64,000 nt of DNA from Macrolepiota albuminosa. Its lineage: Eukaryota; Basidiomycota; Agaricomycetes; Agaricales; Agaricaceae. This document shows, piece after piece, positions 4,859 through 49,745 of the stretch. The notes beneath the pieces are model-generated. The model was not told where the DNA came from, ran no database searches, and worked only from the letters and a program-made list of their open reading frames with translations. The translations under genes and the position numbers were made by a program. Location of the stretch: positions 1,395,534 through 1,459,533 of the forward strand of contig JAMWFC010000088.1 of the NCBI GenBank assembly GCA_027475525.1, in the 5' to 3' direction. Numbering within the stretch: the stretch's first letter is position 1; every line of letters starts with the position of its first letter.

Positions 4859-5811
4859 TGATAGGACCCTATACAGGTTAGGCGCATCAACGGCAGGCGC
4901 GGCACCGGCTCCGGAAACCTTGCCGCACTCGTTCCGAACTTGGCGCATGCGTTCTACCCATTTTAAGCCATTCCCGACGGCCGCGCACGGCAAGAAGCAG
5001 ATCCAATCAATGATAGCGCCGACGGCAGCAGGAATGACAACTGACAGATGGCATCAGTCACTGATGACAGCGCTTAGCGAGAAGCTTGATGATCTATCAA
5101 AAACTGACGGACAGCTTGGCGTTTGACCTTGGCGTCTGACACCGCTTACCGTCTCGATTTGGCGCCCAACGTCGCTTAGGTGTTCTGACAGGCAGAAGGG
5201 TGATGGATTGATGGTTTAGTACCGCGATCTGCCGCCTGGTGGCGCCAAGGGTCCTCCAAGGACGGTAGGGATCGGAAACCGTTGGAGCTACCCCTATGAA
5301 ATTTTCCAGTTTACCGCACTTTGGCGATGGTTGGTCACTGGCGACGGCGAACTCTTTGTAGTATAAAAGTACTTACCGACTTGTACAATGGACCAGCAGA
5401 CGAATAGACCAGAGTTTCCCCCACTTACTTCAGTCTCCCTTACGCTCAAGAGCTCATTTACGCTACGGTCGGCAACGTCAAAACTCATCGGCAGTTGCAG
5501 ACGTTCGCCAACACTCGACATACTCGCGCCTTGCAACTACGGCAGGCATTATCGACGCTTAGAACTTCGCTAAGCTTATCGTGCTCTTGCCGCTCACCCT
5601 TGCCGTCTTCACTTACCGCTTCTTCCTAGGCGCTTTACCTTAGCGCTTACACTTGCCGGCACCCGTTACCGACTTTACACCTTTTTCACAGACGCGTTCT
5701 CTGGGACCTGCCCGGGACTCCTCAAATCACTTTTAGCGCGCCCAACGCACACTCTTGGTACGGTAACACAATTGTTACATTTGTTACTGACCAAAACTTT
5801 GGGCGTCATCA
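4859..5811 (+). repeat. G2 5' LTR
   Basis: 953 bp, starts TGATAGGACC and ends GCGTCATCA; the copy at 15,590-16,542 is at a constant offset of 10,731. A TATA-like AGTATAAAAG occurs near 5,361, followed by a pyrimidine-rich stretch that could hold the transcription start. Confidence 0.93.
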
Positions 5812-5814
5812 AAT

Positions 5815-5831
5815 TGGAGCCCACCGCGAGG
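5815..5831 (+). other. G2 primer-binding site
   Basis: TGGAGCCCACCGCGAGG begins three or four bases after the LTR. TGG pairs with the CCA end of a tRNA; the tRNA species was not determined. Confidence 0.65.
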
Positions 5832-6191
5832 GATCTCTAGGGCAGAATTCCGCCAGAAACCCGTCTCCAGCGTAGGCGCCGCCTGCTAGATCAGTCGGCA
5901 GAAGGCATAGCTCCTTCCCACCCATCAACTCCACAACCACCTGGTGCCTTACCGGGTCTCTCTCTCGCCCAGGAACTACAGAACGCCACTGTAGACGCTT
6001 TTCCTGATCTCTTCCCGCATTCCCTCGATTATAGTACCGACGACCCCTTAGCGTCGCCCTTTACCTTACCGCAATCAATCACCCCCATTACTCCGCTAAC
6101 GCCTCTTTCTCAACTCATTTCTCTTACCCCGTCGCCAGTCTCTAGAACTCCTTCCCCATTACCGCTAACCGAACTCGCCAACACAGTCGCT

Positions 6192-8504: not shown

Positions 8505-8589
8505 TTGGCGACCCAGAGTTTACCGACCAACACGCCAACGAGCCTCCACACCGGTGTTTTCACAGACCATCGAGGAGGTGATTGGCGAC
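8435..8589. repeat. 77-bp tandem duplication
   Basis: 8,435-8,512 matches 8,512-8,589 at an offset of 77 bp. It covers the gag-protease stop codon. Confidence 0.95.
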
Positions 8590-8964
8590 ATCACGGAGAT
8601 GTGGCGCTAACGCTGGAATATGACCATTCAACTGGTCTTGTAAATATTTTGTCTACCGCATATCTTGACAAAGAAGTTTTACTTTCCTCGACCGTTACCG
8701 ACGCTGAGCTTTCTCAGAAAAACCCAGATATTACCGACTCAGCTCTAGCGTACTTATATCTTACCGCCTCTGAATCGTTTCAAAACTTTCTCAGAAAAAC
8801 CCAGATATTACCGACTCAGCTCTAGCGTACTTATATCTTACCGCCTCTGAATCGTTTCAAAATATAGCGTCTACCGATACTTATCTCACCACTCTCCCGG
8901 AGCCTCGCCTCCTGCCGTTCTTGGACTTGCCGCTCCTCAGGCTACAGTTCCCCTTTCCACATCT
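8505..8964 (+). other. G2 linker between protease and RT
   Basis: Open in more than one frame. An acidic or hydrophobic linker (TLEYDHSTGL...) can be read after the duplication, but the exact junction with the pol frame is blurred by two 77-bp duplications. Confidence 0.5.
8709..8862. repeat. 77-bp exact tandem duplication
   Basis: 8,709-8,785 equals 8,786-8,862. It lies in the protease-RT linker. Confidence 0.95.
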
Positions 8965-11900: not shown

Positions 11901-12455
11901 GCGGCTACTGGCACCCATCCGCTACTCCCTGCCGACATTATAGAAGCGACCTACCTTCAGCCAGCGCCCAACAGTATCTTAGCGACTACCGACCTTATCG
12001 CCAGACGAGCAATTGATCTCCAGCGAAGGAAAGAAGATTTGGAGCGACTCCACGAGGTAGTCTTTAGCGCTCGTCGCCAAGCAGCCCTGCGATTCGAAAC
12101 CGAGCATAGCGCCACTATCAAAGATTACAACTTCCCGAGAGGAGCGCTAGTGATCATGCGCAACTCCAAAATCGAGACCTCTTACAACAAGAAAATGCGC
12201 CCGCGCTATCTTGGACCTTTGGTAGTTATCTCCCGTAACCGTGGAGGCGCTTACGTGCTCTGTGAATTAGATGGTTCAGTACTGCATCGACCTGTTGCCG
12301 CTTTTCGCCTATTACCGTATCTCGCCAGGGAACAAATCGACTTGCCGCTTGAAGCGCTAGACATCGACACCGCCAAGCTTAGAGAACTTGAAGAAACCGA
12401 ATTATTGGACGATGATGACTTGCCGACTTTAGTTGAAGAAGAAGAAAATGATTAG
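8965..12455 (+). CDS. G2 pol: reverse transcriptase, RNase H, integrase
   Basis: Copies the element RNA into DNA and inserts it. RT motifs: LKKNGNLRIVHSL near 9,487, LDLYVGYDER near 9,630, PMGWTNS near 9,720, and the catalytic FIDDVGVKGP near 9,805, an unusual Phe-Ile-Asp-Asp box. RNase H spans about 10,310-10,690 (AVDTS, LELYGL, VDARY, HGPDGLSRR). Integrase has an HHCC zinc region at 11,205-11,330, Asp in VDTMHM (11,403), Asp in TDNGAP and Glu in NGLVERPH (about 11,750). The apparent stop at 11,640 comes from a 77-bp duplication at 11,533-11,686. Removing 77 bp puts the downstream part (to 12,455) back in frame, giving about 1,137 residues from 8,965. It ends in an acidic tail with no chromodomain seen. 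Confidence 0.88.
11533..11686. repeat. 77-bp tandem duplication with two mismatches
   Basis: 11,533-11,609 is repeated at 11,610-11,686 with two base differences. It breaks the integrase core of G2 between the first and third catalytic residues. Confidence 0.95.
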
Positions 12456-12670
12456 AAAAGAATATATTGATGAGCTCTCTTTTTCTATTACCTATCTTAC
12501 TTATCTCTCTTGCCGATACTTACTGTACTATATCCAACAGACAATTCTTTACATAGTCAAGTCGCAGCGCTAGCGTGTCGCCAACGCTTAGCGCATTGCG
12601 CAAATCTCGCCAAGGGTTTTTCGCCATGATGATTTACTGAGCGTTTCCCTTTTCTCAAAAATTTGTCTAA

Positions 12671-12824
12671 GTCCCACATCTACTACTCCTCTTACTTTCG
12701 AATACTTACCGCTTGCTTTCTCTTTGCCTTACTTTCTTGGCTCTCGGGTCCCACATCTACTACTCCTCTTACTTTCGAATACTTACCGCTTGCTTTCTCT
12801 TTGCCTTACTTTCTTGGCTCTCGG
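12671..12824. repeat. 77-bp exact tandem duplication
   Basis: 12,671-12,747 equals 12,748-12,824, in the non-coding segment after G2 pol. Confidence 0.95.
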
Positions 12825-12865
12825 CTGTTGCGCTAACTCAGGTTTCTGGGACTTATCTTTTCACT

Positions 12866-12866
<1 letters not shown>

Positions 12867-12916
<50 letters not shown>
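12867..12916 (+). repeat. Run of 50 adenines
   Basis: An uninterrupted plus-strand A50, about 410 bp after the pol stop and 80 bp before the stop of the reverse-oriented gene. It resembles a reverse-transcribed poly(A) tail of a pol-sense RNA, but simple slippage is possible and its length in the assembly is unreliable. Confidence 0.8.
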
Positions 12917-12917
<1 letters not shown>

Positions 12918-12996
12918 GAGGCGGCAAGACAAATATATATGAGACGGTAACAAAAGGAAAAATATACAAAAACGGCCTATCTACGCTAAGGTCCGT

Positions 12997-15420
12997 TTAC
13001 TCGCTATCGTCCTCTAATGACAGGGAATCGTCAGATACCGGCAAGGAAGAGTCGCGAAGGGGGAGAAGGTCGCCAGGAAGAATGTTATTGGCAGCTTGCC
13101 AATCCATGGCTGCTTGGCAATCCCCCTGGTAATCGCGAAGCACGCGAAGGCTACGACCCAGGTTGGAATAGCGCAGTCGCAGCGCCATCAGTTGACCGCG
13201 CACTCGCTCCCGTTCCCGACTCATAGTCGCCTCCATCGTTGCCGCTCTCCGGGAATAGCGCTCCAACATGTCGCGAGGATTGAGCGCTATAACCGGGTAA
13301 ACGAGGTCCTGGCCCAGCCACTGGAAAGCGTCGCCAGTCACTGTCGGCTGCGGCTGCGGGGTCCAGGCAGGATTAACCCTGGCGATCACGGGACGCCTTG
13401 GCTCCAGCCCTACAACGTCCTCAGGATCTGACACCTCCCAAGGGGCGACGTTGCCGTAAGGCGGCAGCCAACGCCACTGAGGCCCCTCCCGGGCGACTTC
13501 TGCCGCTGCCTCCCCTTCTCCCTTGCCCTCTCCCGCTACCATCTCCTCGTCACCTTGGCGCTGCGTCGCCAAGGTTTCGTCCTCCTCCCCTTCAGCGTCC
13601 TCATCTCCTCCCGTTGCCGCTCCCTCTGCCTTCTCTTCCCCCATCTCGATGTCGGCAGGGGCTTTTTCCAGCTCGTCCCGAGGCGCCGCGTCGCCAACCG
13701 CTTCCCGTTCTCCCTCCTCCTGTTCCCCGCCAAGAGATCTTGCCGCCAAGTGAATAGGCGACAAGAGACCGCTGGGGCCAGCCTCTGTGTCACGAGGCGG
13801 GAGGCGACTAGCCGCCAACGCCTTCTCCAGGTCGGCCATCTCGGTATCGCGAGGCGTTGGCGAGGGGGAAGGCGACGACGATACAACGCGGGGGCGCTTT
13901 GCTTTGCCCTTCCCCTTGCTTGGGGAAGGGGCTTGTCGTTTCTCTGGGACCGAAGTCCCTTGGCGCTCGCCGGCGCCTCGATTGCCGACAGATTCCGTCC
14001 CATCCCCTTGGCGCGTCGGTAACGCCAAGGAGGCTCGTCCAATTGCTGCCATGCCACCGGCAGCCACCTTCTTCCTCTGCCCCTCCACAAACTCCCTCGC
14101 CCTCCTTACCAACACCGCGCGGGAAAACGTCTTCTCGACGAGAGCGTCTGGCGCGCCGCCACGCTCGCGACTCTTCGCCCCGTCGATAGTGCAAGCGCGT
14201 TTCAAGGCGCCGCAACGATAACACGGCTGGGCCCCAGTCGGGAACCAACAGCCTTCCGGGTCGTTATCGGCCCAGCACTTGTCGCACTAGCGCAAAGAGT
14301 CAGAAAAAGAATAAAGACAGAAAAGTCACTTACCGCTCCCCTTGCCTCCTTGAACGCCTGCCGGGTCGCTAGGGAAACAGTCTTCTTCCCCTTCATCTCT
14401 TCCATGACAACCCCGGCCTCCTGCCCCTCGTCAAGGACCGCCTCCTCCCGACGCGCCAAAAGTAAACCTTTCAGTTCCTTGTCGTCGAAGGAACTTTGCG
14501 TTGGCGCCTCCAGACACAAGTTAGTAAACACCGCCTAGGTCCAAAAAGAACACTTACCGCGTACTGGGGGGCCTTGCCCTTGCGAGACTTGGAAACAGTG
14601 GTTAGCGTGGCACGGCAGCGGCAAGAATAGGCCAAAACTCACCTTCTTTAAAGCCTTTCCCGGCTTTAGTGGGGAGCCCTTCCTGCTAGCCGGCAGTGCT
14701 GGGCTCTGTGCACTGCCGGCGCGACCACCCTTGCCGGATCCCTCTGCTACCGCCTGCCTCTCGGCGGCAGGCACCCTCCCTGCGGCAACCTCCTCCATCT
14801 CTGCGGCCAACGCGGCAACCCGCTCTCGCTCCTCTAACGCCCTGGTGATCTCGCGGGCGTCTTGAGAAGTCGCCTCCTGCCTTGCCGCGATCTCCTCCTC
14901 CACCTGCATGCGCGCCAAGGGCGCCAGCACCTCTTGTTTGCTGTGGGGGGACAGATCAGACCAAAGCTAAGTTAAAAGAATGGGTTAGGAGTACTCACTC
15001 TGCCGCAGGCGCGCTTACCGTCATCGGCAAGGCACCGGACAGAATGTCCTCCAACTCGTCCTCGATCGTTGGGACGGGAGGAGGCGCCTGGCAACTAGAT
15101 CAGCTAGCGACACGGCAAGAACTGGAGGTACTTACAAAGCGAGCAAAGGGCGCTAGCCACTCCGCGCCACGATGATCCAAGTACCGCGATCGGCACCACT
15201 CCCGCACCTCTATCTCCCTGTCCCAGCCTACGCCAAGGACACGGACTTCGTACCAACGTTCCAATAACTTCATTACGGCAATAACAAGGTTTGTAGGCGC
15301 CTCCGCGCCCACACCATCGATGCGCTTAAGGAAATTGTTGGCCTTAACGATGTAGGCAGAGGCGGCGTCTTGAGCCTCACGGGACGGTACTGGAGGCGGA
15401 GTTGGAATTCGAAAAGACAT
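12997..15420 (-). CDS. Reverse-oriented six-cysteine (Zn2Cys6-like) protein carried by G2, six exons
   Basis: Six exons join with correct phase and GT-AG introns: 15,420-15,136; 15,087-14,999; 14,940-14,643; 14,578-14,558 (a 21-nt microexon); 14,534-14,334; 14,286-12,997. The product is about 727 residues. Exon 3 encodes an Ala/Glu/Arg-rich helical stretch. Exon 6 opens with C-x2-C-x8-C-x8-C-x2-C-x6-C (CDKCW...CYRC...C), related in spacing to fungal Zn2Cys6 clusters. Then come a Lys/Ser/Pro patch (PSKGKGKAKRPR), a long acidic Glu-rich region, and a C-terminal Arg-rich helix (ATMSRERERVRGQLMALRLR). The tail is acidic. Introns would be removed only from the reverse transcript, so the element RNA keeps them. 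Function unknown; a regulatory DNA-binding role is inferred from the cluster. Confidence 0.75.
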
Positions 15421-15576
15421 ATTTTTTTAATGGAGCGCCAGGAAAAGATGGGGAGGAGAAACGAAGTCCACACTCATGCGCCAGGACTATAAACCAAATC
15501 TCAAGAACGCACGGACCACTTGTCACAAAAGCGGTAACGGTAGCCTTATTTGGTGACTGAGGACAGTCAATTTTTC

Positions 15577-15589
15577 AGTTGGGGGGAGA
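15577..15589 (+). other. G2 polypurine tract
   Basis: GTTGGGGGGAGA abuts the 3' LTR start at 15,590. Confidence 0.75.
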
Positions 15590-16542
15590 TGATAGGACCC
15601 TATACAGGTTAGGCGCATCAACGGCAGGCGCGGCACCGGCTCCGGAAACCTTGCCGCACTCGTTCCGAACTTGGCGCATGCGTTCTACCCATTTTAAGCC
15701 ATTCCCGACGGCCGCGCACGGCAAGAAGCAGATCCAATCAATGATAGCGCCGACGGCAGCAGGAATGACAACTGACAGATGGCATCAGTCACTGATGACA
15801 GCGCTTAGCGAGAAGCTTGATGATCTATCAAAAACTGACGGACAGCTTGGCGTTTGACCTTGGCGTCTGACACCGCTTACCGTCTCGATTTGGCGCCCAA
15901 CGTCGCTTAGGTGTTCTGACAGGCAGAAGGGTGATGGATTGATGGTTTAGTACCGCGATCTGCCGCCTGGTGGCGCCAAGGGTCCTCCAAGGACGGTAGG
16001 GATCGGAAACCGTTGGAGCTACCCCTATGAAATTTTCCAGTTTACCGCACTTTGGCGATGGTTGGTCACTGGCGACGGCGAACTCTTTGTAGTATAAAAG
16101 TACTTACCGACTTGTACAATGGACCAGCAGACGAATAGACCAGAGTTTCCCCCACTTACTTCAGTCTCCCTTACGCTCAAGAGCTCATTTACGCTACGGT
16201 CGGCAACGTCAAAACTCATCGGCAGTTGCAGACGTTCGCCAACACTCGACATACTCGCGCCTTGCAACTACGGCAGGCATTATCGACGCTTAGAACTTCG
16301 CTAAGCTTATCGTGCTCTTGCCGCTCACCCTTGCCGTCTTCACTTACCGCTTCTTCCTAGGCGCTTTACCTTAGCGCTTACACTTGCCGGCACCCGTTAC
16401 CGACTTTACACCTTTTTCACAGACGCGTTCTCTGGGACCTGCCCGGGACTCCTCAAATCACTTTTAGCGCGCCCAACGCACACTCTTGGTACGGTAACAC
16501 AATTGTTACATTTGTTACTGACCAAAACTTTGGGCGTCATCA
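15590..16542 (+). repeat. G2 3' LTR
   Basis: 953 bp, I see no difference from 4,859-5,811. The short ORFs it contains are the same as in the 5' copy and are not genes. Confidence 0.93.
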
Positions 16543-37000: not shown

Positions 37001-37478
37001 ATTATATTTTTCTTTCTTTTATTGTTAATCATTTATATCTTACATATGATAATCATTAATAATAAATTTATTATGTAAGTGTTCATCTGGATGAAGAATT
37101 ATATAATTATTTGAGAACAGGTCTGCAGTGACTGTAATTTTCATTCTTACATGAAGTGATAAAAAATTTAAAAGAAAACTAGTCTTGAAAGTTATAAAAA
37201 TGCAATAAATTTTTTGGGAGTATTATTATGTACTCAGTCTAGATTTCAAGAGGAAAGAAGACTCAAAAATTGAGAGAGCCTATTGCACATTAAATGTGCA
37301 AAAAGAGTTGCTAATCCCAACAGATAAAAGTTCAGAGTTATACACAAAGAAAAAGCACAAATTCAGATCAGGTTCTATTGATACTGTAGCCAAATTGCAA
37401 GATGCTCAATTTGAACCAAGTAACAGACACTCAGACTCTGACTAGGAGAATGAACTTCAAGATTATTGGAGTATACCT
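37001..37478. other. No gene seen
   Basis: AT-rich; includes a short arm (AAGTGTTCATCTGGATGAAG near 37,077) related to the 23.5-kb foldback. Confidence 0.5.
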
Positions 37479-37682
37479 TGTAAGAGTGTGTCAATACACC
37501 TTAGTTAAAGCCCAGGATTATGCCTAAGCCTCTATTGACTGGAGCTAGAATAATACTAGTTGACAAAAAAAAGTAAGTAGTAACACAGGACTATGGTGTA
37601 ATGGTAACATGTGATACAGGTTCAAGCCCTGCTAGTTCCAGTTTTCCTGAGGTTGTCAGTTCAATCCTCTGGAAGTATTACA
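37479..37682 (+). repeat. TRIM 5' LTR
   Basis: 204 bp. It contains an A-box match TGGTGTAATGG (37,594-37,604) and a B-box match GGTTCAAGCCC (37,619-37,629). Confidence 0.9.
37588..37640 (+). other. tRNA-like Pol III module in the TRIM LTR
   Basis: Reads like a tRNA lacking its anticodon arm: GGACTA start, A box, B box within a T-arm hairpin (CAGG-TTCAAGC-CCTG), and TAGTTCC end that pairs imperfectly with the start. The second LTR has a perfect 5-bp T stem (GCAGG-TTCAAGT-CCTGC, about 38,032-38,048). Not a functional tRNA. Pol III transcription is an inference. Confidence 0.6.
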
Positions 37683-37684
37683 TT

Positions 37685-37698
37685 TGGTGGAACTACAG
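37685..37698 (+). other. TRIM primer-binding site
   Basis: TGGTGGAACTACAG starts two bases after the 5' LTR. Confidence 0.7.
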
Positions 37699-37878
37699 TG
37701 GCTGTGCTAGCATTGTATATTTGTGACCAAGCCTGTATCATGATCTAGGTTGATCTGCTGATATAAGGTGGCCTTTATCCTGGAACCTATAAGTTATGAA
37801 ATATTGGATGCATGGTCTGTGATTAGGATAAGGTACAAGGAGGGTGCACTTGGGATCCTGAGACTTGCCAGAACAAAT

Positions 37879-37891
37879 CTAGAGGGGAGAG
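37879..37891 (+). other. TRIM polypurine tract
   Basis: CTAGAGGGGAGAG abuts the start of the 3' LTR. Confidence 0.75.
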
Positions 37892-38097
37892 TGTAAGGGT
37901 GTGTGTCAATACACCTTAGTTAAAGCCCAGGGTTATGCCTAAGCCTCTATTGACTAGAGCTAGAATGGTACTAGTTGACAAGAAAAAGCAAGGAGTAACA
38001 CAGGACTATAGTGTAATAGTAACATGCGATGCAGGTTCAAGTCCTGCTAGTTCTAGTTTTTCTGAGGTTGTCAGTTCAATTATCTGGAAGTGTTACA
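37892..38097 (+). repeat. TRIM 3' LTR
   Basis: 206 bp, two bases longer than the 5' copy because of an extra GT in GTGTGTG. It keeps both box motifs (TAGTGTAATAG at 38,009; GGTTCAAGTCC at 38,034). Confidence 0.9.
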
Positions 38098-38729
38098 TAC
38101 CTATACACAGTTTGTTGCAGTCAGCAAGTCTGTGAATGAAGGGAAGACACATACAATGAGAAATTCCTGAGCTTGGATAGGGAAATTTTAGGCTTAGTCA
38201 TAACACTTTTTTGCATTGGATCAGAGAGTCTATATTATAAAAAGAGCGGCTTCCATCACAATCAGTCTGTATTATAGGCATATTAGACCTTGTGATGTGA
38301 GGGTCAGTCATTTTTGTCTCAGGAAGTCCTTCATCTGTTGGCTCTACAGCCATTTGATCTATCCTATTATCTGGTTGTTTAGTTATGGGGTCCCACTTTA
38401 TAGAAAAGGTGTTTAATATGTTTTTTGCTCTATTTACACATGGATGTGGGTGAAATTTCATTTGGTATTTTACATAATAGTATGTAAGCCAGACTACATA
38501 TTATATTACCAGCTAACTGTATATATGCATAGGAGAAAAAGAGAGAGAAGACTTAAATAAAAAATGAACTTGATACTTCCTATATGTCTGTTGGTATAGT
38601 ATTATTATTATTTATGACAAATAGCTGCTGAATATTAGCAGTAAGACAAATAGTAACAAAACAGACAAGTTTAAAGTCTTGTTGATAAAGTTGTTGATGA
38701 GTGAATAATAATTTGAAAAAAGTAAGTGA
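38098..38729. other. No gene; contains one arm of an inverted repeat pair
   Basis: AT-rich. Positions 38,200-38,475 form the repeat listed next; the rest shows nothing recognisable. Confidence 0.5.
38200..38475 (+). repeat. Dispersed repeat, inverted copy at about 58.87-59.14 kb
   Basis: TCCTTCATCTGTTGGCTCTA and TTTTTTGCTCTATTTACACA recur as reverse complement near 59,010 and 58,910. Moderately diverged, no ORF in common. Confidence 0.75.
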
Positions 38730-39423: not shown

Positions 39424-39614
39424 TGAAACAGTGTCAAGTATAGAGGTAGCCTTACGGTCACACCAGCAGAACCAGATCGGTATTCGATTCTAGTACTACG
39501 AGTATGACAGTAAAATTGGCTGCCTTATGTAAGGCAGCCAGCATGTATGTAGAGTAATAATAATTAATTAATATAAGTGTATATTAATTAACTAACTAAG
39601 TATTATCTGTTACA
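39424..39614 (-). repeat. G3 3' LTR
   Basis: 191 bp, read on the minus strand as TGTAACAG...CTGTTTCA. It holds an AT-rich TATA-like tract and a 22-nt near-perfect palindrome (39,518-39,539). Confidence 0.93.
39518..39539. other. LTR hairpin GGCTGCCTTA-TG-TAAGGCAGCC
   Basis: A 10-bp stem with a two-base centre, present in both G3 LTRs (also 49,649-49,670). It could fold in the RNA near the polyadenylation region. Confidence 0.8.
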
Positions 39615-39628
39615 TGCCCCCCTTTGAG
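39615..39628 (-). other. G3 polypurine tract
   Basis: Minus strand CTCAAAGGGGGGCA abuts the 3' LTR. Confidence 0.75.
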
Positions 39629-39806
39629 ACTGGTAACCAGTCTCGATGTAAGGAGGAACACGTTTTTGTCCGGGTCACTAATTAAGTCAATGTGGAGGAT
39701 CGCTGATCCTCCACGGCTCAAAAATGTCCAAGTCATCTGTCAAAAAATACAACGCCGACGTTAACCGACAGTATGAATTGAAAAGGAGATGAGCCGCCTA
39801 CGAAAT

Positions 39807-42617
39807 TCACGCAGACGGCGGACGCGACAACTCGCAAGCCGTATCAATCCTCATCTCAGTGTCGACGTTAACCGAGGATGATGAGGCGACAGGACCCGAC
39901 GATGTTGAGGCTGTAGGAGCCTGAACTGACGTGGAAGGGTGTGACGGAGAGGGGGGATAGGGCCCGTGTCGAGAGCGGCGTTGCCATAAGTCTCGACGGT
40001 TGGGGTTCATCCCCACCGGATAATATAGTCCACTTTCAAGGTACTCATGACCTTGATCGGATTCGCGGGCGAGCAGTGCGTGGAGACGAATCATATCATC
40101 GTCCGTGGGCAGTCGCCAATCGTCCCACCGTGGTATGGCTGCGGGCTCTCCATAGAGGTCCAGTCGACGATGACGTTCATCGTCGACCTCACGGAACTGG
40201 TCAATGGAGGCTGTGGCCGCAAGGAATTGGTTTTTGAGGTAGACCACACCGAAGGTATAGGCGTGGTCCACCCACTCGATAGGTACGCGGTTGGCTATCA
40301 TAGCCCGTAGCACGTCAGCATCGGTGATGTTGACGGCATTAGCCACGTCAAAGTACGGGGGTCGGAACTGGACGTCAGTCCAGCTCATGGGTACGAATGG
40401 GTTGCTGGGGTTGGCGGCGTCGTAATCCGCAACCGCCTCACGATACAGCCCAGGGCGCACGAGAATCAAGGCTAACAGCCTTGCAAAGCGTCCCCGAGCT
40501 CTTCCCGAAGGGGACAGTCCACGCGTCAGGGCATGGCCCAGCAGAGTACGCCAGTGAATGCGGTAAGCCCTATCTACTGCGATACCGTATACCGAATTCA
40601 TCATCCCCGGTCGACAGAAGTAGAGAACATTCTGCGCCAGCTTGTCCAGATCGAAGGTGAAACGTACACCTTCGGAGTCAAACCCGGAGAGAGTAAAGAA
40701 CGGTCTGCCGGCTCGGTCCTTCCATCGCAGGTACCCGTCTGGGGTTGGCATGACCGCGATGTTCATGTGATGGGATGATAAATCGAGAGGGGGCGAAATG
40801 TGCTCGTACTCTGGTGAACACACCAGAGCCATCGTCCTATCCCTCACTGACGTATAGTAATTAATACTGATGCGCTGAAACTCGCGCAACAGATAGTAAG
40901 CCTCAGTGCGTAGAGACACCGAGGTGAACTTGTTCTGCGAAAGCTCATAAAGCTTTCGCAACTGCTGGGGATTCATCGGGAATCCCCGCGGTACCACTCG
41001 ACTCAACTCCTTCGAGGTATGGTAATACCTCTCTCCCCTTTCTTCCTCGTGCGTCTTCGTGGCCAAGGCTTCATCGCTCACAAATACCGTATTGGTGAGC
41101 TGGGAGTAATAAAAATGGCGGTCGAGTGCCCCGCCGTAGAACCAGTTGGAACGCTCCACCGACGTCCCGCTGACAAACACCCCGAGGCCATCAGGAATAC
41201 GGCCTGTGGCCTGCTCCTCCCGGTCTTTATCGACCTTTGCCTGCCGGGCGGCCTCGTGCTTCCTCCGAGCCTCTTTTTTGCGTTTCTTGTCTAAACGCAC
41301 TCGGCGTTTAGCGGGGGTTTCTCCTTCCGAGGGGGTCTCATCTGATGACTCCCCATAATCACTCCCGTCGCTCGGTTCATTTAGACCGAGCGCATCCAAC
41401 GTTAAGAGTCGCCCTTCGACCTCGGCGTCTGTCCTCGTGTCCTTTATGGGGACCGCGGACGCATATGCCCTCAGTGGTGCCTCAAACTGCACCACTGCTC
41501 CGAACCGCATCACAACTCTGTCTGCTCCTCGCGGGACATCCGCTCCGAACTCCACTTCCGACAGGACCACCTCATCCTGCCGCTTTGCCCCTGACTGCTG
41601 GGAAGGCGCATGTGTTGACAAGGACAGTCCTCGTAAACTATTGTCAACCTCCACCAGCTCGTCATGTAACTCGGCCAGGCTCGGAGTGAGTTCTCCAGAT
41701 TCCCGCACCCCAACTTCCGGTCCTGCATCACGCGCTCTGAGGCGTTTTGCCTCAGGTAGCTCCTCCGATGACGACGGACGCTTCTTCATAGCGTTCGTGA
41801 AGGTTTTGATAGTATTGTCGTTACGCTGCTGCAGCATAACGATCTCATCCAACAGACCCGTAATCACCACCTGAGCCACCGGATCCACTAAAAACGCAGA
41901 CTCCGGTGGCACTCGCTGGCCGGCAGATATGAGGCGTCTCCAGACTGCCTCTGCCTGAGGGTCCAACACCTCTGACGGCGTTCCGATCTCTCTTCCTTTT
42001 CCTTTCTCCGCGTACGATAAGCGCCGCGGAGATGGTGCACGATGGGGTGACGGAGAAGCTCGTCGAGGCAGTGTTCGAGGTCAGGGTTGACCTCGATTTT
42101 GCGTCCTCGGTGCCTGCTCATCCCGTCTGCGCCCAACCATTTCCCGAGGCCTGCCTCCTCGTGCCCCAGTACTCCTCGGAGGCGATTGCCTCCGGTCTCT
42201 TCTATGCGTCTCTCGTGGGGGCGGCGTCCTTTCTCGCTGTCGTCGAGGTTGCACCACCTCGCTCTTTACTTGCTGTTGGCGCCCCGCGTTATCGTCCACG
42301 TCCATGGGTGTTACACTCTGGGTCTGCGTCTGCTGCATCGGCATTGGCATTCCCCACATAACCTGTCCCCCCATCTGCTGTCCAGGACCAGCTGGTCCTG
42401 GGAAATACGGCATCTGGAAGAACGGCGGGTAAAACTGCGGAGGTTGTCCAAATTGGGCTGGGTTCTGCCCAAACTGGGACACCACTGGATACGACGCCAC
42501 AGTCGGCGTCGTTACAGGCTGCTGAATGTTTTGCTGGGGGCGATCCCCCCCTCCTCCAGAACCCTGTGGGTTCTGAGGCTGCTGCTCACTGGTCGTACGC
42601 TGGTAAGGGTACGACAT
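39807..42617 (-). CDS. G3 ORF3: large protein of unknown function with one in-frame TGA
   Basis: Sense ORF between pol and the 3' LTR. The first 178 codons (from 42,617, MSYPYQRTTS) end in TGA at about 42,081, but the same frame stays open after it to 39,807, making one 936-codon frame. The N-terminal part is rich in Gln, Pro, Gly and Met, then Arg/Pro (RRQRERTPPPRE). The C-terminal 720 residues have an acidic/basic charged region (KRRVRLDKKRKKEARRKHEA) followed by a globular-looking part (WFYGGALDRHFYYSQLTNTV, FTLSGFDSEGVRFTFDLDKL, PYFDVANAVNITDADVLRAM). No signal peptide or membrane helix is visible, which argues against an envelope protein. TGA could be a decayed CGA or a readthrough site. 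Not recognised. Confidence 0.8.
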
Positions 42618-42848
42618 GGTATCGCAAAAAACGTCGACGTGTCGGTGGGAAAAAACACATTAAATTCCCCATCATCAGGTTACATAATCTGATCCGACCC
42701 TCTCCTCCGCATCACAATCCGCGTTATCTCATCAGATAGATCAACTTCCATCTTATCTATCTGGACAACTTGTGATCCGATCAGAATCAGATACTTGGTC
42801 GATCCGAGATCCGATTGATCTGGCCTTCATCTTATCACTGCCATCGAT

Positions 42849-45800
42849 CTAAGCACGTGAGCGCTTAGCAAGCTGATTTGGGCGCTTCACGCCCTGCAGT
42901 TCTAAGTACCGATCCAATGCTGCCAACTTGGCACATGTGTGGTACGACTCCCATGTCGTATCACCTGCACTCCACCGCACCTCGAATTCGAGGTGCGTTC
43001 CTTCCTGCCACCGATGGCCCAGGATGTCCTCGACGAACCATTCTTGTTCGTCACTGGCACCGAAATCATATGGCTCGGGAGTCACCCGATTAGGGAACAT
43101 AGCATCATCGTTTGCGTTATACCGCCTAAGTAACGATACGTGGAACTTAGGCACAATCCGACGTGCTTGCAGAGCTGCAGGCAGCTCCAGGACATAGTTC
43201 GACGTGCTTGGTTCCGCGACCAAGACTCTGTATGGTCCAATGAATTTTGGACACAGCTTTCTTGCTCTTCCTTTCGGAAGGTTCAAGTTCTCTGTCGACA
43301 GGTACACTAACGTCCCAGGCGTTAGTTCTGGTTCCTCACTTCGCCTATCATTTGCATGTCGTGCCTGTACAACCCGCGCAGCTATGATAGCATCGTGTGC
43401 ATTGGCTAGATTCGCCAATGCTTGCTGTGCAAAGTCCTTTACCCCTTTGTGAACGACTCCGTCTGCCTTTAGTTCGCGCAGCATGGAGGGCATGTAACCT
43501 CCATTGAGCTCGAACGGTGCATATTTCGTGGTCTCAGACACACTTGCGTTGATCGCGAACTCAGTTAGCGGTATTCTATCCACCCAGTCACGTTGGTCCG
43601 GTCGGACCACCGTACGAAAGATCTGGGCAATACTTCTATTCGCTCGCTCCGTCTGTCCATCCGTCTGCGGATGAAACGATGTAGACATGAGTAGCTTAGC
43701 TCCCAGGAGCTTGTGAAGTTCTCGCCACCAGTGAGATGTAAACTTGGTGTCTCGATCGCTCACGATCGAACTTGGAAGGCCATGTAGCCTTACAATCTCC
43801 TTCAAGTAGATCCAGGATAACGCGGACGCCGTAATGGTTGTGTGCACTGGTATCAGATGTACCATACTCGTCATTCGGCAAATGACCACCCAAAGGTAGT
43901 TATACCCTTTGGACTCGGGGAATGGACCAACAAAGTCCATTCCAATGGAGTCCCACGGCTTCGTCGGGATGGGCAGGGAATGCAACTTCCCTGCTGGCTT
44001 CCTATTGCTGGTCTTCGACCGCTGGCAGGCCTTGCAGGTCTGGCAGAACTGCATCACTTCTTTCTGCATCTGAGGCCACCAGTACCATTGCCTCAGGTAT
44101 TCTAGTGTTTTGTTGGTTCCAAAGTGACCAACAACCTCATGAGCTTGAGTGACAACCTTAGTGAGCAGTGCTCGGTCGCGTGGTAAGCACACCACGTCGT
44201 GTCCTCGAACATTCGTTATCCGGACTAGTCCTTTCTCATCCACGCTGAAGCGTGGATGGGCGTTTGCGTTCTGCCGGATTTCTGTGTAGAACGCATCGTG
44301 TCTATAGCCCCTCATCACCTTCTGGAGGTACTCATTGGTTTGAGGAACAGGAGGGTTGCGATACTCTCCTGTAGGCGATAACACGTCAGCGAGCGTCAGG
44401 TTGTGGCTATCCGGTCCACAACTGCTTCCAGTCTCACTTTGGTGTGGCTTTGTCGCCTCCTTTTGCTGAGCCTGCTCTAGTTGCTCAGCCTCTATGTCGC
44501 GGCCCTCTTGCCGCTCTTGCAGTCGTTGACTGTGTCGCAGTTTGGTAGCTTGCATAGCCCGCAGCTCGACCACATGCTCCTTCACCTCTCTGTAACGATG
44601 ATACGGAAGATCATCGCCATGAGGATCAATGCGAATATCCGCATCGACGTATTCATGCGTATCATGGTGTTCGCCTGCTCTATCGCTCTCGAAGTACCTC
44701 GAGAGACAGTCCGCCACCTTGTTCAGTTCGCCTTTGACATATGTGATGTCAAAGTTGTAGCGAGACATATAGTCAATCCACCGGCGTTGCCGGGGGGACA
44801 ACGTTGCTTGAGTCTTGAAGAACTCAAGTGCTTTATGGTCTGTAATGATGTGGATCTTATATCCCATCAATTTATCTTCCCACTTAAGGAGCGCCTCAAG
44901 TATCGCCAGCGTTTCCAGCTCATGGACCGCATAATTCTGTTGGGCCGAGGTGAACTTCCTCGACATGAACCCAGCCGGTCGACAATTCTGCCAGGAACTT
45001 CCCTGACCATACATTGCTCCTACTCCGGTCTTTGAGGCATCACAGATGAGCCAAATCGGCTCATCACATCGGGGATCTATGGGACGAATGACTGGTGTCT
45101 TTGAGCAGATCCTCTTGATCATCTCAAAACATCGTTGGTGTATAGGTCTCCATATAAATGGAGCACCATTCTGAGTAATAGACATCAACGGTCCAGTATA
45201 TGCTGTTATATCAGGCAGACAATTGCCGATATAGTTCACTAGTCCCACGAATCTTTGCACATCATTATAGTTACGAGGCACACGCCATTCGCGTATGCGA
45301 TCGATTTTGTCCTGGTCAGGGTGAATACCCTGACTATCAATCTTGTGTCCGAGGCAATCCACTGTCTCGGCATATAGTTCGCATTTCTTCCACTTGAGGT
45401 ATAGCAAGTTAGACCTCAGTCGCTCGAAAATGACACGAAGATGCTCTTCGTGTTCTTCGATTGAATCGGAGTATATGAATATGTCGTCCAAATAGATATG
45501 GACGAACCTCCCGATAACATCCCGGAAGATGGAGGTCATCAACCTCTGAAATGTCGCAGGAGCATTGCAATCTCCTATCTGCATAATGTTGCTCACATAT
45601 GTTCCCGTGATTGACGAGAACACTGTCTTTGGGATATCAGACAAGCGAATTCTCACTTGCTCATACGCATCCGTCAGGTCAATTTTTGACCTGAACTTTG
45701 CTCTCGCCACATCTTCTCGAATCACTTCCTGATCCGGAAGTGGCGTCACGTCCTTCACGGTGTTGTCATTGCGTTGGCGTGCATCCAACGCCGTCCTTAA

Positions 45801-46724
45801 TGTACCATCTTTCTTCGGAATGCACAATAGCGGAGCAGCTTGGGAGGCTGGTTGAGCCTCCCACCAGTGGGCTCTCAGGTACCGATTGGTCTTGTCTCGG
45901 AGCTGCTGCTGCAGCGCCATTGGACATCGAGGCAAATGATATTTATACACCTTATTCTCATCAATAAGGTTGATTTCATGGTTGACCTCTCGCCAAGGAG
46001 GTAACTCCTCCTTGGTTCCGTTCAGAATATCCGCAAATTCCTGCTGCCACTGCAATCGTAGGTCCGGAATGTCCTCCTTCGTAAAACCACTGGTTTTACC
46101 TTTGCCCTTCCAGTCCACATCCTTGCATGGGCGCCCGGACAGCTTTGCTTGTACGGCTGGACGGCCATACTTCTCTCTGAGGGCAGTAATCCTCAGCTCG
46201 CTGTCATCCGGCGTGTGCAGTCGCACAGGCACTTCCTTCTTACTTCTCCGCGACGTCACAGATAGTCCGTCGAAGAACACCTCACTTGGCGACGATATCT
46301 CGTCGTCACTAGCCTGACGATACGACTCCTCCTTCGACGTCCATCGTGGTCCATTCCACGCATACATCGACGCCACTAGGTCATTCCACTCAGCAGGCAT
46401 TCGTGGATCAAATGCCCATTCAAATGTGGGATGAGGTACTGGTCGATCCCAGATTGACCGATTCGTATGTGTGGAGGACGCCTCATCCTCCATCAGTCGT
46501 TGATCGTCGTCATCTGTTACCAAGTCCTCAACCTTCACTTGCGACGACGTCGGTTGGCACTCTGTGCTTGCCGCATGCTGAGGCCGCTTGTCCTCAGACT
46601 TACTCTGCTTTTCACACTTCATCTCCTTCATCTCGGGGCTCTCCCCCCTCTTCAGAGTACGTTTGTACTCTACAGCTTCGCTTTCCAGCATCAACACCGC
46701 CGGACTATCCATGGGCAAGCTCAC
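42849..46724 (-). CDS. G3 pol: RT, RNase H, integrase, chromodomain-like end
   Basis: 1,291 residues, fully open. The N-terminal about 210 residues are acidic and variable. RT at about 290-500 has CIPKKDGTLRTALDAR, KIDLTDAYEQV and the catalytic YLDD at 411-414. RNase H starts near 540 (LICDASKTGVGA, LETLAILEAL, TDHKAL, NKVADCLSRY). Integrase has an HHCC region (HEVVGHFGTNKTL, CQTCKACQRSK) and the D-D-E triad in MDFVG, SDRDTKF and TDGQTERAN, all intact. The C-terminal segment EDILGHRWQEGTHLEFEVRW and WESYHTC is a chromodomain-like module near 1,225-1,275. A GPYRVL motif precedes it. Likely a functional polyprotein. Confidence 0.93.
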   Translation of the reverse strand: MSLPMDSPAVLMLESEAVEYKRTLKRGESPEMKEMKCEKQSKSEDKRPQHAASTECQPTSSQVKVEDLVTDDDDQRLMEDEASSTHTNRSIWDRPVPHPTFEWAFDPRMPAEWNDLVASMYAWNGPRWTSKEESYRQASDDEISSPSEVFFDGLSVTSRRSKKEVPVRLHTPDDSELRITALREKYGRPAVQAKLSGRPCKDVDWKGKGKTSGFTKEDIPDLRLQWQQEFADILNGTKEELPPWREVNHEINLIDENKVYKYHLPRCPMALQQQLRDKTNRYLRAHWWEAQPASQAAPLLCIPKKDGTLRTALDARQRNDNTVKDVTPLPDQEVIREDVARAKFRSKIDLTDAYEQVRIRLSDIPKTVFSSITGTYVSNIMQIGDCNAPATFQRLMTSIFRDVIGRFVHIYLDDIFIYSDSIEEHEEHLRVIFERLRSNLLYLKWKKCELYAETVDCLGHKIDSQGIHPDQDKIDRIREWRVPRNYNDVQRFVGLVNYIGNCLPDITAYTGPLMSITQNGAPFIWRPIHQRCFEMIKRICSKTPVIRPIDPRCDEPIWLICDASKTGVGAMYGQGSSWQNCRPAGFMSRKFTSAQQNYAVHELETLAILEALLKWEDKLMGYKIHIITDHKALEFFKTQATLSPRQRRWIDYMSRYNFDITYVKGELNKVADCLSRYFESDRAGEHHDTHEYVDADIRIDPHGDDLPYHRYREVKEHVVELRAMQATKLRHSQRLQERQEGRDIEAEQLEQAQQKEATKPHQSETGSSCGPDSHNLTLADVLSPTGEYRNPPVPQTNEYLQKVMRGYRHDAFYTEIRQNANAHPRFSVDEKGLVRITNVRGHDVVCLPRDRALLTKVVTQAHEVVGHFGTNKTLEYLRQWYWWPQMQKEVMQFCQTCKACQRSKTSNRKPAGKLHSLPIPTKPWDSIGMDFVGPFPESKGYNYLWVVICRMTSMVHLIPVHTTITASALSWIYLKEIVRLHGLPSSIVSDRDTKFTSHWWRELHKLLGAKLLMSTSFHPQTDGQTERANRSIAQIFRTVVRPDQRDWVDRIPLTEFAINASVSETTKYAPFELNGGYMPSMLRELKADGVVHKGVKDFAQQALANLANAHDAIIAARVVQARHANDRRSEEPELTPGTLVYLSTENLNLPKGRARKLCPKFIGPYRVLVAEPSTSNYVLELPAALQARRIVPKFHVSLLRRYNANDDAMFPNRVTPEPYDFGASDEQEWFVEDILGHRWQEGTHLEFEVRWSAGDTTWESYHTCAKLAALDRYLELQGVKRPNQLAKRSRA

Positions 46725-46826
46725 ATGAGCTTGCTCTTCATCCTCTCCATCCTCAACCGTAGGCGCTTTCTTGCCTCTGTCTAGTCAGTGTCGCCTGACT
46801 AGCACCTTCTTCTCCGTGGCGCGGTG

Positions 46827-47198
46827 TCAATGGAGACGTCCATCTCCATTATCTATGGTCACTCGCATTGCAGGGATGGTCGTGCCATCCACCACTATCT
46901 CATTCTTCTTGAAGTTCAGCAGAACGTTGTGCTTCCTCATATACGGCGTGCCTATAATCATGTCGTAACGATCAAAGTTCGCCACGTCAAGGTACTCCCT
47001 CGTCCTTGATTTCGCACAGGCGATACTCGCCTGCGTACCAAACTGTACCACAGCTCGGCTGCCCACAGTACCCAATTGAAGGAGTAGTGGCTCCTTCAAC
47101 TCACTGACAGAAATATCGTGCACTTGGCAAAACTGGGGTGTCACCCCAGTAGTCGTACTACCTGAATCCCACAATGTCCATGCCTTGTGGCCATTCAC
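46827..47198 (-). CDS. G3 aspartic protease
   Basis: About 123 residues with WDSGSTTTGV as active site and MIIGTPYMRKHNVLL as the second conserved block. It has no ATG at its upstream end (GTG) and is open upstream, overlapping the gag end in the -1 frame. It is therefore probably made as a gag-protease frameshift product. It ends about 100 nt before the pol ORF. Confidence 0.85.
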   Translation of the reverse strand: MNGHKAWTLWDSGSTTTGVTPQFCQVHDISVSELKEPLLLQLGTVGSRAVVQFGTQASIACAKSRTREYLDVANFDRYDMIIGTPYMRKHNVLLNFKKNEIVVDGTTIPAMRVTIDNGDGRLH

Positions 47199-49327
47199 CT
47201 CAACGTACGACGCCAGGCATGTAGCCCAAAGTGTCGTGCTATTTTGTGGGCTTGCTCGTAGCGCAATGCATGCGCTACGAATTCCTCGACGGTATTTACT
47301 TCGGGCGATAGTCCGTCATCACAAATGAGGGACTCTCTCATTGCGTCAGGTATTCCCCGCAGGAAGGTATCAATCATTACCCAGTTGTCTGGGTAAATAG
47401 ACATATTCTGTGCGTGGTCTATCAAGGTATCATAGAAACCTTGAACACCTAATCGTTCAGTGTAGGAGGTTGCAATAAACGCCTCCCGAGCATCCTGCAT
47501 GGTGGATGCACTCACAAACCGGTTATATAATTCAAGGATTACATCCTTGAACGTCCATTGCTGTCGTGCACGATTGTAGTGCAAGACATGATGACGGAAC
47601 CAGGCTTTGGCTGGTCCGTCCAGGAACTCCGGGAGCACGAACACACGTTCTCGATCCAGACGATCCCCTCCATACTGGCATGCTGCCAGATGGTTGCACA
47701 CATCCATCGTCCAATTTTCCAAGTCGCTAAACTTGGACTCCCCTCTGTACGGTTGGATGTGTTTTGACTCCGCCTTACGTGGTTTGATACCTTCGGGCAG
47801 GCGTAATGCTATGCCTACCGCATCGTCGATTATACTACTGAGGCGCTGGTGCATATTCTCAGTATACACCTTTGTCGCCTCAGTTATTCCAGGCGTTTTA
47901 TTTCTACCTTCCGCTGGAGGTACCACGGAAAATGCACGTACAGGTCGGTGACCTGTGTAGTGCACTTTCTCTGCACCCTTCCAATGCAGGGGGCTCTCCT
48001 GTCCCCCTAGCTCTTCTATCACCTGCTTTCCAGGGCCTCGGCTCGGATCCGCCGTGGGCGGGTCCCCTCTCCTGGTGTCAGGCTGTCGTGTCCGTTGGAC
48101 ATATTGCCTTCTCATCTCGTCGATGGGCGTTATCCCATCGAATACAATTCCCTGGTCGTCTATCCAGGAGTGTCCCTGGCGCTTCAGGTCTTGGTTCCGC
48201 ATGCGCTGATAAGCTACTCTCTCCGCAAACTTATCAGCCAACGGCACTTGATTTGTCAGTGGAACATTCTCCACTGATTCCTGTTTTGTGTGAGGGTGCC
48301 TTGACTCCCCCGCTTCGGGTAGGTTGCTATCTGCCACAGGTATGGTAGACACCGATTCCGATGTCGACAGAGGTCTCCTTCGCTGACCTCTGAATACATT
48401 CTGTCTTTGTGCTGCCGCGAACCTGGCAGCGAACTGCTCGTCAGACTCTCCTGCTTGCTGGGGCGCATATATGTTGCTCATTGCCTCTTCCAGATGGGGA
48501 GACAACTCTGGCTTTGCCACCGGGGGTATATTCGGAATCAAATTTGCCCCCTCTGGAGTCGAGGCAGCTGATCCTCGATTAGCCTTGCGATAAATGTATG
48601 CTTGGGCTTCCAGCTCAAGAATCTGAACGTACAATGTAATGTATTCAGCAGTATTCAATTGAGGTACATTTTCACCTCTAGCCTGTATTAACCGTATGTG
48701 TTTCAGTACATACAGTCCTAGTCGAGCACGCGTGGTATCCTTTGTAATGCTAGGATATCTCTTCCATAACATAGCACACTGAACCTGAAGGGTGGACTCA
48801 CTCCGTCCACTCTCTTCGTCATCGGATGTTTCGTCTTCCCAGTGTACTGCCGGCGTCCTTTGCTCAGGAATTGTCGTTTCCTGTGGCACTCCGGATCCCT
48901 GCTGACGTTGCGTCATGGGAGTGGATTCAGTTGGAACTCTCCAACTGCCCGCCTCTTGCCTCGGCATCTTCCCCAGAAAGTACGACGAAGGTCTGCGACC
49001 TTCGGTAGGTCCCTGAGCACTACTCCTGCTCTGGGATTGCCGCCCTGACCTCCCAGTCTGCATGGGAGATTCATGCTCCCTGCCGACCTGCTGTTCCAGG
49101 TCTTCCACAAATGCCCCTGGTCTCGCTGCACCGCTTGGCGCAGCTGTCGGCCGCACTTCACTCCATTGCGTCCCTCCTGGCATTCCCTGAGGCTGCCGGG
49201 AAGGCTCGGCCTCTGTGTATTCTGACCCGGGACGACCCGGGTCAGTCACCACAGATTGAGGATATGCCAACGACTGGTCGATGGTCTCACCATCGCGTGT
49301 CGGTTCAGTAGATTGATTGGTCTCCAT
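47195..49327 (-). CDS. G3 gag
   Basis: 710 residues from METNQSTEPT. The first about 500 residues are low-complexity, rich in Gln, Pro, Ser, Thr. The C-terminal 190 residues form a retrotransposon gag capsid domain (FSDLENWTMDVCNHLAACQY, GPAKAWFRHH, DVILELYNRFV, GFYDTLIDHAQNM, FLRGIPDAM). No CCHC zinc knuckle was found, which is unusual. The long N-terminal extension is also larger than in most Ty3 gag proteins. Confidence 0.85.
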   Translation of the reverse strand: METNQSTEPTRDGETIDQSLAYPQSVVTDPGRPGSEYTEAEPSRQPQGMPGGTQWSEVRPTAAPSGAARPGAFVEDLEQQVGREHESPMQTGRSGRQSQSRSSAQGPTEGRRPSSYFLGKMPRQEAGSWRVPTESTPMTQRQQGSGVPQETTIPEQRTPAVHWEDETSDDEESGRSESTLQVQCAMLWKRYPSITKDTTRARLGLYVLKHIRLIQARGENVPQLNTAEYITLYVQILELEAQAYIYRKANRGSAASTPEGANLIPNIPPVAKPELSPHLEEAMSNIYAPQQAGESDEQFAARFAAAQRQNVFRGQRRRPLSTSESVSTIPVADSNLPEAGESRHPHTKQESVENVPLTNQVPLADKFAERVAYQRMRNQDLKRQGHSWIDDQGIVFDGITPIDEMRRQYVQRTRQPDTRRGDPPTADPSRGPGKQVIEELGGQESPLHWKGAEKVHYTGHRPVRAFSVVPPAEGRNKTPGITEATKVYTENMHQRLSSIIDDAVGIALRLPEGIKPRKAESKHIQPYRGESKFSDLENWTMDVCNHLAACQYGGDRLDRERVFVLPEFLDGPAKAWFRHHVLHYNRARQQWTFKDVILELYNRFVSASTMQDAREAFIATSYTERLGVQGFYDTLIDHAQNMSIYPDNWVMIDTFLRGIPDAMRESLICDDGLSPEVNTVEEFVAHALRYEQAHKIARHFGLHAWRRTLR

Positions 49328-49364
49328 CCAATCAAGTGTTGCTACGTCTCGTTTTACCCGGAAG

Positions 49365-49518
49365 CGTGCGTCAAAGAAGTTGATACACTGTTCGATGCAA
49401 TCACAGTCTAGGCTATCAGTCTAGACCCGTAGTCTTTGTCCCGTGCGTCAAAGAAGTTGATACACTGTTCGATGCAATCACAGTCTAGGCTATCAGTCTA
49501 GACCCGTAGTCTTTGTCC
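49365..49518. repeat. 77-bp exact tandem duplication
   Basis: 49,365-49,441 equals 49,442-49,518, in the G3 leader between LTR and gag. Confidence 0.95.
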
Positions 49519-49554
49519 ATAGTATCAGAATTGAACCCGAAAGGTTCAAAAAAG
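49519..49554 (-). other. G3 leader next to the 5' LTR
   Basis: Minus strand starts CTTTTTTGAACC and carries a hairpin TGAACC-TTTCG-GGTTCA. No TGG primer site directly follows the LTR, so priming may use an internal tRNA part or self-priming; not resolved. Confidence 0.5.
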
Positions 49555-49745
49555 TGAAACAGTGTCAAGTATAGAGGTAGCCTTACGGTCACACCAGCAG
49601 AACCAGATCGGTATTCGATTCTAGTACTACGAGTATGACAGTAAAATTGGCTGCCTTATGTAAGGCAGCCAGCATGTATGTAGAGTAATAATAATTAATT
49701 AATATAAGTGTATATTAATTAACTAACTAAGTATTATCTGTTACA
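49555..49745 (-). repeat. G3 5' LTR
   Basis: 191 bp at a constant offset of 10,131 from the left copy, no difference seen. Confidence 0.93.

Follow-up and report, generated by a model that had tools for sequence, protein, structure and literature searches.

A short non-coding LTR retroelement of Macrolepiota albuminosa whose tRNA-like LTR module may yield its own reverse-transcription primer

Positions 37479–38097 of the window, the whole 64,000 nt stretch of DNA analysed, hold a complete TRIM of 619 bp, recognized by direct reading from its LTRs, target-site duplication, PBS and purine tract. The preliminary description had listed the same parts, with LTRs of 204 and 206 bp and a TACCT duplication, and all of them could be read directly. 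The element has the short direct LTRs with TG...CA ends and the short non-coding interior of the TRIM class, as well as the PBS at the 5′ LTR, the purine tract at the 3′ LTR and the target duplication that belong to that class. Its interior is 209 bp long, with TT separating the LTR end from the TGG that opens the PBS at 37685, and no ORF of ≥200 aa among those of the window overlapped the element. The features of the locus are the following.

37474–37478, plus strand: target-site duplication TACCT, left copy (direct reading).
37479–37682, plus strand: 5′ LTR, 204 bp, TGTAAG...TTACA (direct reading; family matches).
37587–37640, plus strand: tRNA-like module of the 5′ LTR, with acceptor, D arm, T arm and discriminator A and without anticodon arm (RF00005, 30.1 bits, model positions 1–71).
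37594–37604, plus strand: A-box-like TGGTGTAATGG of the 5′ LTR (direct reading).
37619–37629, plus strand: B-box-like GGTTCAAGCCC of the 5′ LTR, 14 bp past the A box (direct reading).
37633–37640, plus strand: 3′ acceptor strand and discriminator of the 5′ module, TAGTTCCA, complementary to the PBS once CCA is added (sequence comparison).
37642–37645, plus strand: TTTT, resembling a Pol III terminator, one base past the module (direct reading; at least four T in 54 of 75 LTRs).
37658–37667, plus strand: second B-box-like site AGTTCAATCC, 53 bp past the A box (direct reading).
37685–37695, plus strand: PBS TGGTGGAACTA, exact 11 nt complement of the 5′ module end plus CCA (pairing comparison).
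To about 37702, plus strand: bulged pairing beyond the PBS 11-mer (pairing comparison).
37881–37891, plus strand: polypurine tract AGAGGGGAGAG, adjoining the 3′ LTR (direct reading).
37892–38097, plus strand: 3′ LTR, 206 bp (direct reading).
38002–38055, plus strand: tRNA-like module of the 3′ LTR, ending in TAGTTCTA, one letter off the PBS match (RF00005, 42.3 bits; minimum-energy fold with acceptor, D and T arms).
38009–38019, plus strand: A box TAGTGTAATAG of the 3′ LTR (direct reading).
38034–38044, plus strand: B box GGTTCAAGTCC of the 3′ LTR, with 14 bp between A and B (direct reading).
38057–38061, plus strand: TTTTT after the 3′ LTR module (direct reading).
38098–38102, plus strand: target-site duplication TACCT, right copy (direct reading).

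The 54 nt modules of both LTRs were fitted by RF00005, the tRNA model of Rfam, over their full length, above the cut-off of 29 bits and with E-values of 0.03 (5′) and 1e-5 (3′) when the whole 64 kb was scanned. The 17 anticodon-arm positions of the model were absent from both, in agreement with the initial reading of a tRNA-like module without an anticodon arm in each LTR. A permissive scan of 16 related loci gave 30 RF00005 matches of 33.7–44.8 bits, two per locus except for one each in L006 and L084; with the default fast filters of Rfam, only four TRIM modules were reported among the ten TRIM loci given, and ARAGORN called no tRNA in the window. The common module consists of a 7 bp acceptor stem whose third pair is G-U, a 4 bp D arm with GG in its loop, five linker bases and a 5 bp T arm with a TTCAA loop, followed by the discriminator A, one G and a T-run. 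It contains G3-U70 together with A73, which are identity marks of alanine tRNA. Neither module was more stable in RNAfold than shuffled sequence (z of 1.73 for the 5′ module and −0.21 for the 3′ module). The minimum-energy structure of the 3′ module was tRNA-like; that of the 5′ module alone was not, and this, together with the stability values, counts against the proposal, developed below, that the module gives rise to a primer.

Module variability was assessed in 75 aligned LTRs, representing 61 distinct rows, across 204 circular shifts. The non-CpG paired columns of the module were third-lowest in variability, a rank that was unchanged without the 12 LTRs from loci picked via the acceptor pattern (49 distinct rows). 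Once CpG sites were counted as well, the paired columns came only 12th of 204, again to the detriment of a primer function. Strong conservation of the 3′-acceptor block was considered and rejected, its conservation being equalled by 35 of the 197 windows compared. The support from conservation of the module columns is modest, given a young family, mutually dependent shifts and an unexceptional acceptor block.

The module was aligned to 50 sampled host tRNA genes and scored highest with tRNA-Gln(TTG), at 41 of 54 letters, which is compatible with the earlier suggestion of Gln; the Ser(CGA) and Ile(AAT) tRNAs shared 42 letters with the module at lower scores. Introns of host tRNA genes that had seemed to be repeated proved not to be: of five searched, the four with a match are found once per locus. 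Rfam 5S gave no match at E up to 10 in the modules or up to 0.5 in the 64 kb. Elsewhere in the genome, tRNA-like units are clustered at L129, L130 and L131, where the B boxes lie some 80–290 bp apart; the Rfam tRNA model did not report these units at cut-off with default filters. Other B-box repeats, among the matches listed, include tRNA-like tandem units for which an LTR structure was not demonstrated.

The genome searched comprised 100,137,612 bases in 129 contigs, and yielded at least 48 matches to the family (40 of 68 candidates scored). The 209 bp interior had 37 matches from 35 candidates, all scored, which look like TRIM copies or fragments judging by their place and length. A pattern for the module body, with up to three mismatches allowed, matched 90 times in the genome, each time within two letters of the pattern, and its reversed control not once; the check for other LTR copies foreseen in the preliminary description thus led to a repetitive family. 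No free-standing module was found among 14 places located via the module or acceptor pattern, all 14 being LTR-length matches. Other families with the same module body were sought and discounted, as the 90 matches were all near-identical and the 14 places compared were LTR-length throughout. One module pattern searched against viral contigs gave 0 matches.

By eye, a perfect 5 bp duplication flanks seven of the eight full copies L001–L008, L004 being the exception. LTR pair identity ranged from 91.3 to 100 % across 17 measured copies (18 were given, of which L086 gave no value, and some were aligned in part), and the LTRs of L003 are identical over 204 bp. From these identities and duplications we infer that the family moved by retrotransposition, in part recently, as at L003. 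A TRIM copy lies inside a larger amplified repeat, with the flank CTTCATTCACAGACTG (or CTTCATTTACAGACTG), at L069–L071, L073–L078, L080–L085 and L087, and this shared flank indicates that many TRIM copies descend from one insertion. Tandem duplications with a 77 bp step occur at varying TRIM positions (C67:178452-179145, C115:1072163-1072856, C60:63382-63662 and C73:445916-446023) and also in an unrelated repeat (L129:969-1122); they resemble an artefact of assembly, built on a 77-base word, more than a biological feature.

The window contains other LTR elements. The one at 4859–16542 has identical 953 bp LTRs, a CCGT duplication and a PBS that matches a host tRNA at 18 of 18 letters. The one at 39424–49745, on the minus strand, has identical 191 bp LTRs and a GCAGT duplication; there is no TGG directly past its 5′ LTR, where the perfect hairpin TTGAACC-TTTC-GGGTTCAA is found instead. 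Both look Gypsy-like, judging by their ORFs.

The reverse complement of the TRIM PBS is TAGTTCCACCA, which is identical to the last eight letters of the 5′ LTR module (LTR positions 155–162) followed by CCA. The CCA is not encoded by the LTR, which reads CCAGTTTT, and the match is therefore to the processed, CCA-tailed form of the module. The preliminary description correctly placed a TGG primer site two bases inside the LTR, but had not noticed its complementarity to the CCA-tailed module end. The PBS and the tailed 5′ module form 11 contiguous pairs, ending at the boundary between acceptor and T stem, and 14 of 18 when ungapped. With two one-base bulges, the module end pairs to the PBS over 18 nt, the usual length, at −27.5 kcal/mol, and none of 2000 shuffles paired as well. 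The window and 30 sampled tRNA loci together contain 5274 TGG sites, of which that of the TRIM alone has 11 matching letters; two have 8 and none has 9 or 10. As a positive control, a second element in the window was run through the same script, and its PBS matched a host tRNA at 18 of 18 letters.

The complementarity extends to other copies of the family. Thirty loci gave 30 PBS rows: L088 contributed two and L086, where the PBS is damaged, none. Each of the 18 TGGTGG rows, by eye from about 13 different flanks, has an exact match in one or both LTR modules of its own copy (the 5′ module in 16, the 3′ module in 15). The other 12 rows read TGGCGG and match at 10 of 11 letters, and 11 of them share the flank of one duplicated lineage. 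Their mismatch at the discriminator is not accompanied by a matching module change, which counts against a primer encoded by the element, as does the fact that in the window copy only the 5′ module matches the PBS, the 3′ module being changed by one letter. The PBS pattern CANNTGGYGGAACTA matched the genome 30 times (reversed control, 1), at TRIM copies only, so that no autonomous element shares the PBS in that form.

That the PBS is complementary to the CCA-tailed end of the module points to a second, perhaps main, role of the module, as a primer of reverse transcription. The 3′ terminus of the primer fixes where U5 ends in an LTR element, and trimming before integration usually removes two bases. 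The order LTR-CA, TT, TGG in the window TRIM is the standard spacing, and with TT ahead of TGG the implied primer has CCA as its last letters. On the strength of these sequence comparisons, we rather favour the interpretation that the locus is a non-coding TRIM of the Helenus type, in which the tRNA-like gene of the LTR would yield the element's own reverse-transcription primer.

Excerpts of Kojima 2024 (PMC10886601) describe Helenus as TRIMs with tRNA-derived sequence in their LTRs, grouped with Cassandra as TRIMp3, and name basidiomycete fungi, with Pucciniales and some Agaricomycetes, among the hosts. The principal alternative is that the window TRIM is an ordinary Helenus element, in which the module serves only as a Pol III promoter and priming falls to an unseen or imperfectly matching host tRNA, such as tRNA-Gln or one cleaved within the anticodon loop. 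The same excerpts assign host tRNA primers to fungal Helenus, mostly at anticodon loops (Kojima 2024, PMC10886601), and the host tRNA sample was incomplete, with 63 of 4905 candidates scored and 50 read and many isotypes missing. Over the first 11 PBS letters the host tRNA-Gln has 8 matches, and over 18 letters it has 11. Set against this, the best of 22 distinct sampled mature host tRNAs had 7 contiguous letters in common with the PBS. Within the first 11 PBS positions, the module and tRNA-Gln differ at three, and at all three the PBS carries the letter of the module; this is as expected if PBS and module changed together, a comparison that takes Gln as the relative of the module. Further along, position 12 has the letter of Gln and not of the module, and position 18 that of the module. 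By plain arithmetic, the chance of an 8-letter match beside TGG is near 4^-8.

Genome-wide patterns for host tRNA ends also speak against an ordinary host primer. The patterns cover 3′ ends and assume a T-loop of GTTCRANNC (GGTTCRANNC for TTCCA), which places loops such as that of the initiator tRNA, as well as anticodon-loop primers, outside their scope. A tRNA-type end in ...TAGTTCC had 77 matches in the whole genome, of which 76 carry the LTR module letters and one was not called a tRNA. For ...GTTCCA there were 83 matches, 76 in the LTR module and seven in non-LTR loci, at all seven of which ARAGORN called no tRNA. The sole tRNA call of that run lay inside TRIM copy L126, with a 454-base intron. 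The ...TTCCA end likewise gave 83 matches, 76 LTR and seven non-LTR, four of the seven being checked and without a tRNA call. Hence none of the three patterns recognized a genuine host tRNA gene with a standard T-loop and a 3′ end matching the PBS (three non-LTR TTCCA matches being unchecked), and we regard the ordinary Helenus explanation as unlikely.

A second alternative is self-priming in cis as in Tf1, in which the acceptor strand of the module would fold onto the PBS within the TRIM RNA and be cleaved into a primer, without a separate mini-tRNA. In the predicted leader, TAGTTCCA indeed pairs with the PBS in cis at a probability of about 0.99, and Tf1 is described, in excerpts of PMC7175516, as priming with its own first 11 bases after cutting by RNase H. 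Such cis pairing is an automatic consequence of self-priming by an LTR-encoded RNA; equally, the complementarity could serve the predicted hairpin instead, which counts against a separate primer. However, the PBS match runs through TGG, whose complement CCA is missing from the LTR. If the primer stopped at the encoded A, the LTR would terminate in TTTGG, but the observed 3′ LTR end, TTACA, abuts the target duplication; under the U5-end rule this speaks against Tf1-like cleavage in cis. Moreover, the Tf1 primer is the 5′ end of its RNA, whereas here the primer stretch lies inside the LTR. We therefore consider cis self-priming distinctly improbable. That the complementarity arose by chance, or from a structure without a role in priming (such as a hairpin for packaging or dimerization beside the PBS), is more doubtful still. 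The family is young and of low divergence, which gives shared letters little weight as independent signs of selection, and related copies dominate the counts; but no shuffle among the 2000 paired as well, and the register fits the tRNA 3′ end, the CCA and the canonical PBS position together.

We return to the reading in which the module itself supplies the primer. In its general form, the model is of a retroelement whose LTR would contain the gene for the element's primer. That primer, a mini-tRNA lacking the anticodon arm and tailed with CCA, would be transcribed from the LTR and match the PBS; the element would need no host tRNA for priming, and primer and PBS would co-evolve. We rate this model at about even. 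Pol III would make the mini-tRNA directly, or a longer transcript would be cut by RNase P and RNase Z, and the CCA enzyme would finish it. The mini-tRNA would then anneal to the PBS of the TRIM RNA and prime minus-strand DNA. A single promoter could give two products, the primer when transcription stops at the T-run and the template upon read-through. A precedent for the maturation steps is provided by mascRNA and menRNA, tRNA-like RNAs that, according to excerpts of PMC11693755, keep the elbow and acceptor, are cut by the tRNA-processing enzymes RNase P and RNase Z, and are then CCA-tailed. Unlike the candidate described here, they derive from nuclear long RNAs. We know of no part played by mascRNA or menRNA in retrotransposition.

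The transcription signals are in partial agreement with this model. A Pol III promoter in the LTRs, as put forward in the preliminary description, is possible, but less straightforward than was stated: the 14 bp between the A and B boxes of the module fall below the 31–93 bp of natural yeast spacings given in excerpts of PMC11724288, which counts against a module-encoded primer, and it is the second B-box-like site, at 53 bp, that fits this range. In the LTR majority sequence the second site reads GGTTCAATCC. With a run of four to five T directly past the module, a short transcript of tRNA size would be expected more readily than a full-length one. In 19 of 75 LTRs, however, GCTTT takes the place of the T-run, a further point against the model. 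In the 40 bases downstream of 30 host tRNA loci, the longest T-run was 4 in seven, 5–7 in 22 and 2 in one, which puts four T at the weak end of the host range without being unusual. By inference, leaky termination could allow the short primer and the long template to be made side by side. Depletion of T-runs was explored as proof of Pol III read-through and set aside; other T4 runs are absent between the L003 modules, without significance (P = 0.59).

Proteins would have to come from a helper LTR retrotransposon, most likely Copia, as excerpts of Kojima 2024 (PMC10886601) propose for other fungal Helenus. Copia reverse transcriptases are abundant in the genome (150 of 989 candidates were scored and listed, above cut-off), so a helper exists in principle. 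Genome pattern and interior searches found no autonomous partner with either the same PBS after a 2-base spacer or the same interior.

By the accepted view, LTR retroelements and retroviruses prime with a tRNA taken from the host, and Tf1-like elements with a piece of their own mRNA. The window TRIM resembles Tf1/sushi in that the primer would come from the element's own RNA; it differs in that Tf1, as excerpted, uses the first 11 bases of its mRNA, whereas the candidate primer here is a CCA-tailed tRNA-like RNA inside the LTR. With Cassandra and Ajax, the TRIMp3 of 5S rRNA type, it shares a Pol III-type small-RNA sequence within TRIM LTRs, which in those elements is derived from 5S rRNA and here has no Rfam 5S match. 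The preliminary description had regarded a tRNA-type fungal counterpart of Cassandra as a novelty. This claim fails, because tiny fungal LTR elements with tRNA-like LTRs are already described as Helenus in the excerpted text of Kojima 2024 (PMC10886601).

The likeness to Helenus, as portrayed in those excerpts, extends to a short non-coding LTR element, tRNA-like LTRs with A and B boxes, a PBS, a purine tract and 5 bp duplications. The differences are that the window TRIM has a module without an anticodon arm, that its PBS had no full match at the host 3′ ends sampled or checked by pattern (the Helenus PBS is reported to match host tRNA), and that its module and PBS match exactly over 11 nt through the CCA, which the excerpts report for no Helenus element. 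According to the same excerpts, no complementarity was found between the tRNA-like sequence of Helenus LTRs and the PBS, and this sequence was judged not to contribute to priming (Kojima 2024, PMC10886601), which counts against the present proposal. Judged by its sequence, the window TRIM is a candidate exception to that conclusion. A search of open-licence PMC papers found no report of a self-encoded tRNA primer.

If the proposed reading is true, a dedicated tRNA-like primer encoded by a natural element would constitute a third route of priming, and the published view that the tRNA-like sequences of Helenus are not involved in the initiation of reverse transcription would have an exception. 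Promotion would then not be the only function of such LTRs in Helenus.
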